In this document: positions 41,934 through 50,620 of the stretch, piece after piece
Layout: every line of letters starts with the position of its first letter
Position numbering within the stretch: position 1 is the first letter of the stretch
DNA from: Gordonia insulae
Lineage (GTDB): Bacteria > Actinomycetota > Actinomycetes > Mycobacteriales > Mycobacteriaceae
Length of the DNA stretch: 64,000 nucleotides
Reading direction: 5' to 3'
NCBI RefSeq assembly: GCF_003855095.1
Contig: NZ_CP033972.1
Location: forward strand, 3,782,001-3,846,000
Notes under the pieces: model-generated
Databases searched by the model: none
What the model was told of the DNA's origin: nothing
The model's input: the letters and a program-made list of their open reading frames with translations, nothing else
Translations under genes and position numbers: made by a program

Positions 41934-41973
41934 TCAGCGCTGGGCGACCTGCGTCGGGTAGATCGGCGCGGGA
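41934..41973. repeat. Left 40-bp direct repeat (orphan gltD 3' end)
   Basis: Identical to 50581-50620. It encodes the last codons and stop of gltD on the minus strand (ending PTQVAQR) but has no gltD upstream of it. It lies 8 bp from the stop of the first island gene. Confidence 0.9.
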
Positions 41974-41981
41974 CCGGATCC

Positions 41982-43013
41982 TCATTCGTGCACTGCCGTC
42001 ACCTTCCAGTGCGCAATGAGATGCCCGGCGACATCAGCATCGAGCAGGACGGCCGCGCGGAATCCGGTCAACAGATCGACCGAGAGGTCCGGCTCGCTCT
42101 CCAGCAACGGCATGGACATGTCGTACAGGGCTATCTGCTCGTGCACGGCGTCCGCTTCGACATGCTCATCGAAGAACCGAGTCGCCTCGTCGCCGAACCC
42201 GAGCCTCCGCAACCCCTCCGCATACCTCTTGTTCGGGATGGACGACGTGCATTCGAGCGCGAGGAGGTGTCCGACGACGGCGGCCCGGAGTCGACGGCGG
42301 GACGCGAAGAGTGACAACGTGTTCGACCACGCCAGGGTGACCGCGGGAAGGGTTTCGGCATAGGCGCCGTAGTCGCTGGAGAGTCCGAGGGAGTTCATCG
42401 ACCGAGCGAAAAGAGTGGCATGCATGTCCTCTTCCCTGCCACCGCCGTACTCGTCGCTCTGGATCTCGACGAGTGCCGCCTTCGCCCGGCCGGTCAGCCT
42501 GGGGATCGCGATCGTATGCGGATCGGCTTCGCGAAGGTGATACAGCGACCGATGACGCAGAAGGTCCCGATAGTCGGCCGCGGTCCCCTCGCACCGGAGA
42601 TACGACGACAGGGCGGGCGCGGCGATGCCGTCGAGTTCACGTCGCACCCGTGCGGGCAGCTCTTCTGCTGTGCACGGATCCATCGCACCCACACGATCGC
42701 GGATGGCCGCCTCCAGGGCGTCGCCGATGTCCAGTCGTAGCGAGGCCACCGCGGGATGGTCGTTCCACCGATCGTCGACCCCGCACACTCCTCGCCCATC
42801 GAGTTCGCCGATGATGAACCACGCTCGTTGCAGATCCAGATCGTCGAGCAACGCACGCCCGGCGGGCTTGGCGCTCAGGACGTGGGCGACGTCGGTCAGA
42901 TCGACGCCCGACGTCGTAGGCCTCTCCCGCAACATCCTCCACACGATCAGACTCAGGGGGCCACGGGGCTCGAGCATCGGGCACCGGGTCGGAGTCTGCC
43001 CGGCCGCGGTCAT
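41982..43013 (-). CDS. Iron-containing redox enzyme, haem-oxygenase-like fold
   Basis: A 343-aa member of the haem-oxygenase-like diiron/iron oxygenase (HDO) superfamily. Candidate ligands are in EIQSDEYGGGREEDMHATLF (E...H), ALECTSSIPNKRYAEG and EHVEADAVHEQIALYDM (E...H). Relatives include UndA (decarboxylase), BesC and SznF (N-oxygenase). The substrate is unknown. ATG 43013 has CGGAG upstream and is divergent from the CDGSH protein gene, a pairing seen in other actinobacteria. It is the leftmost gene of the island. Confidence 0.8.
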   Translation of the reverse strand: MTAAGQTPTRCPMLEPRGPLSLIVWRMLRERPTTSGVDLTDVAHVLSAKPAGRALLDDLDLQRAWFIIGELDGRGVCGVDDRWNDHPAVASLRLDIGDALEAAIRDRVGAMDPCTAEELPARVRRELDGIAAPALSSYLRCEGTAADYRDLLRHRSLYHLREADPHTIAIPRLTGRAKAALVEIQSDEYGGGREEDMHATLFARSMNSLGLSSDYGAYAETLPAVTLAWSNTLSLFASRRRLRAAVVGHLLALECTSSIPNKRYAEGLRRLGFGDEATRFFDEHVEADAVHEQIALYDMSMPLLESEPDLSVDLLTGFRAAVLLDADVAGHLIAHWKVTAVHE

Positions 43014-43072
43014 GATTCTCCGCCCCGCCGATGTCGACACCGCCGGATGCCGGCGTCGCTCATCATGGACTC

Positions 43073-43309
43073 ATGGACATCCCCACAGAACGTCGATCCA
43101 CGCCCACCGGACACGGATCGGCGCGGATAACGGTCACGCCGGGTGGCCCGCTGGTGGTTCGCGGTGACGTCGAGATCGTGGACGCCGCCGGAAACCCCAT
43201 CCCACGGCACCGCGCCACCGTGGCCCTCTGCCGATGTGGCCGCTCGAGCATCCAGCCCTACTGCGACGGAACCCATGCCGTCGGTCGTCCGCCCATTCAC
43301 GGCGACTGA
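43073..43309 (+). CDS. CDGSH iron-sulfur domain protein
   Basis: A 78-aa protein with one CDGSH motif, CRCGRSSIQPYCDGTH, which binds a [2Fe-2S] cluster through three Cys and one His. The preceding VTPGGPLVVRGDVEI strand is typical of the short bacterial type. Such proteins transfer electrons or clusters; its divergent neighbour is an HDO-type iron enzyme that needs a reductant, so it is a plausible electron donor. ATG 43073. The last 13 bp overlap the 3' end of the NRPS gene. Confidence 0.9.
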   Translation: MDIPTERRSTPTGHGSARITVTPGGPLVVRGDVEIVDAAGNPIPRHRATVALCRCGRSSIQPYCDGTHAVGRPPIHGD

Positions 43310-49256: not shown

Positions 49257-49369
49257 GTGTGGGCTCCCGGGTCGACGCGAGCTCGGGGGCGTGGAAGCCG
49301 AGCTCTGTCATAGTAGGCACATGCGGGGTCGTGCAGCGTGACGATTGGGTCACTTGTCCAGGAGCACGG

Positions 49370-50548
49370 GTGACGGGCCGCTCCGACAGGGCAGACCGCG
49401 CCCCGACTCTCGCGGTGGCGGTGTTGGCATTCGTCCAGTTCGTCATCGTCGTCGACGAGACGACGGTCTCGTTGCTCGGGCCCGCGGTGGCTCGCGACCT
49501 CGGCCTGGGTGATGAGGCCCGCCAATTGCTCGTGACCCCGTTTGCAGCCGGCTTCGTGTGCGCTCTGCCCGTCGCCGGAGTGGTTCTCCGACGAATCGAC
49601 CCGCGTCGCGCACTGATCCCGGCGACCGCGGTCTTTGCCACCTCCGCCGCCGCCGGAGCGCTCGCCGACTCCGCGGCCCTGCTCGCGGCGACTCGGGTCG
49701 CTCAGGGCGCCTCGGGCGCCGTCACCGCCACCTGTGTGCTGGGAGCGCTACACATGCTGACCCGTGGCGCCCTCGGACGGCGCCGCGCCTTCGCCGTGTT
49801 CTCATTGGTGTCCGGATCCGGTGCGGTGGCCGCACTGGTTCTGGCGGGACCGTTGGCAACCGAATCGTGGAGGTGGTGTTTCGTCGCAGTCGCGGTCGCG
49901 GCTCTGGCGGGCGCCATTGGGTGGGCCGTCGTCCAACCGCCCCGGGTTGTCGGGCAGACGCATCATGCCTCGGGACCCGATCGGGTCGCAGACGACACGG
50001 GCCACCCGGTCGACCGACGGATCCCGACCATCGTGTCCTTCCTCGCCGTCGTGGGTGCGAACGCCGTATTGGCCGCAACCGTGATCTCGGTCAGCTTCGC
50101 ACTCCAACAGGACCATTCGTGGTCACCGATGATGGCGGGTCTCGCGTTCCTGCCTCTCAACGCAGCGGCCGCCGTCGGAACCATCGTCATCGCAAGGAGC
50201 CGAACGCGAGGCGTGATCGGACGGACTCTATCTGCCGGCGTCATCGTGCTGGTGATCGGTTGCACGGCAACGGCGGCAGTCCCATCCGTTCCCGGTGCTC
50301 TGATCCTCGCGTTGCTTCCGGTCGGACTCGGGGTGGGGCTGGTGTTCCCCCTCGTCAACGACGGCAGTCTCGCGACGGCCGGCGCACGCCCGCTCGGCCG
50401 GGCCGCCATGCTCGGGGCGGCCCAACAGACAGGGCTGGCGTCCGGAGCGCTTGTGGCCGCCGCACATTCCGATGCCGCTCTCGGCGCGCTCGCCGTTGTA
50501 CTCGCGATCACGACAGCAATCACGGTCATCGGCGCCCGAAGGCGTTGA
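49370..50548 (+). CDS. MFS transporter (DHA2-like drug/metabolite exporter)
   Basis: A 392-aa major facilitator with about twelve to fourteen helices. FVQFVIVVDETTVSLLGPAVARDLG is the first-helix motif (LDxTVVNVALP-like) of drug exporters, RRIDPRRALI the loop motif A, and GASGAVTATCVLGAL motif C of antiporters. Probably exports the product of the neighbouring NRPS, and confers self-resistance; inferred. AGGAG lies 5 bases before GTG 49370. It is divergent from the esterase gene across 113 bp, and ends 32 bp before the right direct repeat. Confidence 0.88.
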   Translation: MTGRSDRADRAPTLAVAVLAFVQFVIVVDETTVSLLGPAVARDLGLGDEARQLLVTPFAAGFVCALPVAGVVLRRIDPRRALIPATAVFATSAAAGALADSAALLAATRVAQGASGAVTATCVLGALHMLTRGALGRRRAFAVFSLVSGSGAVAALVLAGPLATESWRWCFVAVAVAALAGAIGWAVVQPPRVVGQTHHASGPDRVADDTGHPVDRRIPTIVSFLAVVGANAVLAATVISVSFALQQDHSWSPMMAGLAFLPLNAAAAVGTIVIARSRTRGVIGRTLSAGVIVLVIGCTATAAVPSVPGALILALLPVGLGVGLVFPLVNDGSLATAGARPLGRAAMLGAAQQTGLASGALVAAAHSDAALGALAVVLAITTAITVIGARRR

Positions 50549-50580
50549 CTTTCAGTCGTCGCCCGATGCGATCGCCGCGG

Positions 50581-50620
50581 TCAGCGCTGGGCGACCTGCG
50601 TCGGGTAGATCGGCGCGGGA
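50581..50620. repeat. Right 40-bp direct repeat (native gltD 3' end)
   Basis: Identical to 41934-41973. It begins exactly at the gltD stop codon, so insertion here left gltD intact. Confidence 0.9.

Follow-up and report, generated by a model that had tools for sequence, protein, structure and literature searches.

A six-gene NRPS-mycoloyltransferase cluster beside gltD in Gordonia insulae, framed by a 40-bp repeat of the gltD 3' end

In a 64-kb window of the Gordonia insulae genome (contig NZ_CP033972.1, 3,782,001 to 3,846,000; positions below are counted from the first base of this window), six genes lie between gltD and the gene for a regulator with two TetR_N stretches (Pfam). They encode a haem-oxygenase-like diiron protein (HDO), a CDGSH iron-sulfur protein, a nonribosomal peptide synthetase (NRPS), a DUF2231 membrane protein, an Ag85-like esterase, and a major facilitator superfamily (MFS) exporter. 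The last 40 bp of gltD occur twice, once in gltD itself and once at the far end of the six-gene block. How did the block come to lie here, and what does the repeat record? A preliminary description of the window had proposed a site-specific insertion at a gene 3' end that left the host gene functional. The sequence comparisons support the view that the block entered at the gltD 3' end and left gltD whole, but they do not support site-specific integration. We suggest, with a probability of about one half, that the block is an accessory NRPS-mycoloyltransferase cluster of Gordonia in a variable gltD-lysX interval, and that the repeat is the scar of a recent homology-anchored illegitimate recombination.

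The repeat, the empty sites and the age of the duplication

The two copies of the repeat (Table 1) agree at 40 of 40 bases, and their starts are 8,647 bp apart. With one mismatch, the match extends to 43 nt (41931 to 41973 and 50578 to 50620). A search of the 5.96-Mb genome that allowed up to three mismatches found these two copies only, and a reversed-pattern control found none. Therefore, a dispersed repeat, which the preliminary description had considered for the left copy, is ruled out. A chance origin is ruled out as well, because about 2e-13 exact 40-mer pairs would be expected in 64 kb of independent bases. The right copy consists of the last 37 coding bases and the stop codon of an intact gltD, and the left copy is an orphan that does not code for gltD. 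Thus, the perfect direct repeats around an 8.6-kb block, one an authentic gene end and the other an orphan, were found as first described. A duplication reaching past the stop codon was rejected, because the outer flanks had no significant similarity there (global p 0.69, local p 0.80).

We compared this locus with those of other Gordonia genomes, which are given G numbers here, G000 being the genome of the window. All 59 Gordonia genomes have gltD, and the DNA flanking gltD was compared for 40 of the 58 others; six of these 40 stretches were shorter than 12 kb because of contig ends. When the window proteins were mapped on the flanks, the double-TetR gene was found at eight of the 40 gltD loci. 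At six of them (G050, G054, G013, G049, G024, and G041), the TetR gene lies directly beside gltD, with no island and a single gltD end. The other two are G040, which has the island, and G033, which has other genes in between. The preliminary description had predicted such empty sites for an insertion, and six species have them; the opposite outcome, in which all relatives carry the six genes and both repeats, did not occur.

The sequence to the left of the orphan copy resembles the spacer of the empty sites. It contains a CCACTCTGCTACA motif that is common to G013, G049, and G041. Against the six empty-site spacers, its similarity was above 60 shuffles each for G049, G041, and G050, and not above 60 shuffles for G013, G054, and G024. 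It is therefore probably the old gltD-TetR spacer.

In all 40 other species, the 40-bp gltD end departs from the G000 sequence at 2 to 11 bases, whereas the orphan copy matches it throughout. The duplication is therefore most likely recent and specific to this lineage, having arisen after the lineage parted from all of the species sampled. Both copies end in an A at the last base, which is present in four of the 40 other species. With 0 differences in 40 bases, the divergence of the copies is bounded at about 7%, and when G000 is compared with G040, silent sites in six flanking genes have reached 0.60 to 0.87 of saturation. Together, the empty sites in six relatives, the old-looking spacer after the orphan copy, and the lineage-specific duplication support the insertion.

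The cluster in G040 and at other loci

G040 has the same six genes as G000, in the same order, orientation, and interval. However, it has one gltD end at up to three mismatches and no framing repeat; the only direct repeats of at least 22 nt found there were a 23-nt pair, 37 nt apart. Its junctions also differ from those of G000. The HDO frame has its stop inside the TetR leader, and that of MFS extends through a hairpin. On this comparison, no element ends are conserved between the two genomes.

The hairpins give some indication of where the block entered. Hairpins of -33 kcal/mol or stronger were predicted 11 to 52 nt downstream of gltD in eight of 12 folded relatives, and weaker ones in G013 (-18.2 kcal/mol), G049 (-13.0 kcal/mol), G041 (-24.2 kcal/mol), and G047. 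In G000, the best hairpin within 60 nt of gltD reaches -18.6 kcal/mol, and one of -31.4 kcal/mol lies 90 nt after the orphan copy. G040 has kept a hairpin of -44.5 kcal/mol beside gltD, which places its island on the other side of the hairpin. In our reading, the block may have entered at the gltD end in G000 and nearer to the TetR gene in G040.

Relatives of the NRPS (E 1e-150 or better) were found in 14 of the 59 genomes. The cluster lies at gltD only in G000 and G040, and the other 12 have it elsewhere. Flanks are shared among G055, G021, G015, G046, and G038, and among G003, G056, G025, and G034, and the right-hand flanks of G054, G047, and G030 match none of the others. No direct repeats of at least 22 nt frame the cluster in G054, G047, or G030 within the approximately 1 to 2 kb of flank searched. 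The NRPS gene of G034 (G034:C1:569214-573508) appeared as two matches, residues 7 to 529 and 586 to 1434, and is apparently broken.

Did the cluster reach the gltD spot once or twice? Trees of lysX, gltD, and gltB place G000 with G041, G049, and G013, all of which have empty sites; these trees carry no support values, and the placement of G000 is uncertain. G050, the sister of G040, also has an empty site. The TetR protein of G000 is closest to those of G040 and G050 (71% identity, compared with 53 to 63% for the others), which would fit either a shared history or a joint transfer of TetR and island. Protein clusters gave 96% for the closest HDO set and 71% for the closest TetR besides that of the window itself; they lack gene context and were not used. 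Between G000 and G040, silent sites are near saturation for the island genes and likewise for TetR, so dating cannot separate one entry from two.

Possible remnants of the island in the empty sites provide weak and mixed evidence. Beside its hairpin, G050 has a 15-nt match to the 250-bp right end of the G040 island, a length reached by none of 500 shuffles. However, shuffles do reach 15 nt when matched against the whole island, and both the gapped score of G050 against the G040 right end and the longest exact island matches of the five other empty sites were inside the null. Two of 24 gapped comparisons scored above all 60 shuffles, namely, G050 with the G000 MFS tail (17.7 versus 16.9) and G054 with the G000 HDO tail (17.5 versus 14.0). 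From these data, the cluster would have reached the gltD spot either twice or once with about four losses.

Other genes also occupy this flank of gltD. G033 has a Na/H exchanger gene and one more gene, G008 has an Abhydrolase_3 gene and others, and G046 has approximately 8 kb with genes for a BTAD/AAA regulator, hemerythrin, HAD, CopD, and AHSA1. None of the 12 open reading frames (ORFs) scanned in these three inserts matched a recombinase family.

On the other side of gltBD, a stretch of about 5.4 kb beside gltB (57250 to 62680) is approximately 99% identical to G013. It holds most of an Abhydrolase_3 gene, one further ORF, a LuxR-type AAA regulator gene, and more. Identity to G013 rises from about 87% near 57.1 kb and falls after 62.7 kb, whereas gltB at 55.0 to 56.6 kb is 81 to 95% identical per 100 bases. 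With 57990 to 62700 as the query, 18 of the 59 genomes matched at E 1e-50, and besides the block in G000 and G013, the matches listed were at most 83% identical. This difference in identity points to a very recent interspecies exchange beside gltBD in this strain.

How the block may have been joined to gltD

In the reading that we favor, an allele with the island would recombine with an empty one. A linear fragment would be anchored by homology on one side, either that of gltBD or that of TetR, and its other side would be joined nonhomologously, next to the HDO gene and 40 bp into the gltD end. The product would carry TetR, the old spacer, and a truncated gltD end, followed by the island and an intact gltD. 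Because the two alleles would share no sequence past the stop codon, the repeat would stop at the gltD stop codon. The dissimilar outer flanks are expected under this reading, and they fit other models too. Homology-anchored recombination would need only a single random breakpoint and no integrase, and it could explain why G000 and G040 share a spot. The other inserts at the gltD flank in G033, G008, and G046, the recent exchange beside gltBD, and the Ku encoded in the genome also speak for it. The repeat, the empty sites, the young age of the duplication, and the cargo free of recombinase genes are observed, and we infer how the ends were joined, which way the DNA passed, and from which donor it came.

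There are precedents for such events. PMC3240628 describes homology-facilitated illegitimate recombination in three competent species and, in Escherichia coli conjugation, at about 3e-10 per recipient, which is rare. PMC5361080 proposes it for orphan gene arrays in another genus and also calls it rare. These cases resemble the process that we propose here in having one anchored and one nonhomologous junction, a leftover gene piece beside imported genes, and no need for an integrase. They differ from it in the leftover piece, which at our locus is 40 bp copied from the end of a gene. PMC5635113, a statistical study over 80 species, reports many hotspots that have no recognizable mobile elements and recombine at flanking core genes. 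Our case resembles these hotspots in its variable genes between conserved neighbors, in the lack of a detected recombinase, and in recent exchange by the anchor genes, but it concerns a single locus, where a repeat is present.

Several points weigh against this explanation. Identical copies call for a donor that, over the last 40 bp of gltD, was conspecific or very close, and the sample contains none. A 400-bp identity scan across gltBD revealed no crossover point and no clear breakpoint. Such recombination is reported to be rare, and by analogy it would be carried over to Gordonia from other organisms. A single gain at this locus would have to be followed by about four losses, and two gains would need an anchor for the shared spot. 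Finally, no strong hairpin lies beside gltD in G013, G049, or G041 either, and the absence of one in G000 need not stem from the insertion.

Integrative elements are known to enter gene 3' ends and restore them, and the preliminary description had this process in mind. A circle with a 40-bp attP equal to the gltD end would have been inserted by an integrase encoded elsewhere in the cell. A perfect core of 40 bp with its edge at the stop codon, the restored gltD, and the single-copy empty sites are what such an island would leave. Outside the block, the genome also contains five matches to PF00589 and one to PF07508, these being the two recombinase families sought, so an integrase could act in trans; the preliminary description had advised looking for one. 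However, no recombinase was found by Pfam among the six cargo genes, in agreement with the first account. No second orphan gltD end was detected in 39 of the 40 other gltD loci (best score 16, versus 40 in G000; the remaining locus was too short to use, and two of the 39 had less than 3 kb of flank). A gltD-end motif had no match in viral contigs. In addition, the clusters of G054, G047, and G030 have no framing repeats, the G040 cluster has no repeat, and G000 and G040 share no ends. A literature search for integrase-borne genomic islands with an attB at gltD found no paper. The part of the proposal that concerns insertion with an intact gltD is supported by the six empty sites, the spacer, and the duplication, and the site-specific part is not supported; we consider it unlikely. 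A stronger version is very improbable. In that version, a trans-acting recombinase that recognizes the 40-bp gltD end would bring a roaming Gordonia cassette to this site; the cassette would carry a one-module C-A-T-C NRPS, always paired with a secreted mycoloyltransferase, and would make a mycoloylated surface peptide.

Alternatively, a staggered break within the end of gltD could have captured a fragment, and fill-in and end joining by Ku and a ligase would then have left 40 bp of host sequence on either side of the insert. This would explain the perfect identity of the copies without a conspecific donor, and it agrees with the presence of Ku in the genome and with the G040 junctions that lack element ends. 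But 40 nt would be a long stagger, the agreement between the edge of the repeat and the stop codon would be left to selection, and the occurrence of the same genes at the same spot in G040 would go unexplained. We regard this route as quite unlikely. A more plausible possibility, although we hold it only tentatively, is a single entry in the common ancestor of G000 and G040 with losses elsewhere. The repeat in G000 would then be a later product, perhaps of recombination with an empty allele. It overlaps with the recombination that we favor, and the two are not mutually exclusive. The shared gene content, order, orientation, and spot argue for it, as do the DUF2231 gene that is found between the NRPS and Ag85-like genes in G000 and G040 alone of the 14 clusters, the closeness of the TetR proteins, and the possible remnants in G050 and G054. 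Against it stand the empty sites of G050, G041, G049, and G013, which call for the losses, and the null results among the remnant searches. Overall, a scar from ordinary recombination at a variable spot is more likely than a new kind of mobile element.

We regard the locus as a good and largely ordinary example of how clusters turn over at an anchoring core gene; its enzyme pairing is of interest. It is a clean case, open to dating, of a biosynthetic cluster that lies next to a core gene and shows no integrase. At this spot, the cargo is the same in two lineages, and the junctions are not. Through the repeat, the island might also be lost precisely, with gltD left whole.

The genes of the block and the NRPS-mycoloyltransferase pairing

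Pfam matches bore out the cargo that had been claimed for the block (Table 1). In the NRPS, the HHxxxDG-type residues (152 to 158 and 1174 to 1180) and GGDS (979 to 982) are invariant in eight aligned relatives. No tRNA was found in the window.

Table 1. Features of the gltD locus, in window coordinates
Feature	Position	Strand	Basis or remark
Double-TetR_N regulator, left flank	40568..41884	-	Longest ORF; database version 404 aa, start probably near 41782
Probable old gltD-TetR spacer	41785..41933		TetR leader, -31.4 kcal/mol hairpin, CCACTCTGCTACA motif
Orphan (left) copy of gltD 3' end	41934..41973		40/40 identity with right copy
HDO, haem-oxygenase-like diiron protein (PF14518, Haem_oxygenas_2)	41982..43040	-	Distant kin of SznF, HrmI, BesC
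CDGSH iron-sulfur protein (zf-CDGSH)	43031..43309	+	Pfam
NRPS, 1448 aa, C-A-T-C	43297..47643	-	Pfam: Condensation x2, AMP-binding, PP-binding
DUF2231 membrane protein	47627..48103	-	Pfam
Ag85/Cmt1-like mycoloyltransferase-type esterase	48165..49256	-	Pfam Esterase; probably secreted (N-terminal signal-like stretch, our reading)
MFS exporter	49259..50548	+	Longest ORF; start may be near 49361
Right repeat copy, authentic gltD 3' end with stop codon	50581..50620		Last 37 coding bases plus stop codon
gltD, intact	50581..52035	-	gltD found in all 59 genomes

The G+C content at third codon positions (GC3) is 0.72 to 0.82 in the island and 0.87 to 0.91 in its flanks. We dropped the idea of a foreign composition, because the island homologues in other Gordonia are mostly low in GC3 too (0.70 to 0.89). 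Thus, there is no sign of a distant recent source.

The NRPS and Ag85-like genes occur together in all 14 clusters. They are adjacent in 12, and in G000 and G040 the DUF2231 gene lies between them. The HDO, CDGSH, and MFS genes accompany them in five of the 14 (G000, G040, G054, G047, and G030; 18 to 19.5 kb per locus). In a species-level collection, from which 80 of 216 NRPS loci were kept, an Ag85-like gene (E 1e-6) lay by the NRPS gene in eight of eight Gordonia loci and in none of the 72 others; the NRPSs of those 72 have at most 36% identity in the best segment.

The Ag85-like protein aligns with Cmt1 over almost its full length (residues 3 to 361, E = 2.8e-50). Its AGISMSGT and THSWGYWQD motifs, which we take to hold the catalytic nucleophile and histidine residues, align with AGMSMSAT and THSWGWWQD of Cmt1. 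By this similarity, the protein is assigned to the Ag85/Cmt mycoloyltransferase family, and mycoloyl transfer is its predicted activity. The cluster product may be a surface lipopeptide that is possibly mycoloylated; we know of no product described for this cluster. The domains are those standard in C-A-T-C NRPSs and in Ag85/Cmt1 mycoloyltransferases. Our literature searches found no description of an NRPS-mycoloyltransferase pairing or of HDO and CDGSH proteins with an NRPS. Such a constant pairing suggests that Gordonia makes an envelope peptide that has yet to be explored.

No near DNA match of the block was found in plasmids or phages, and no HDO relatives were found in phages. Plasmids do have distant relatives of the NRPS and DUF2231 genes (below 60%) and also HDO relatives. 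CP085888.1, a plasmid of Gordonia polyisoprenivorans, has a fragment of an HDO relative with 62% identity over 44% of the query. Two Rhodococcus plasmids have a distant NRPS gene beside a HemK2-type methyltransferase gene and two-component genes, and one of the two, from R. qingshengii, also carries DUF2231 and universal stress genes.

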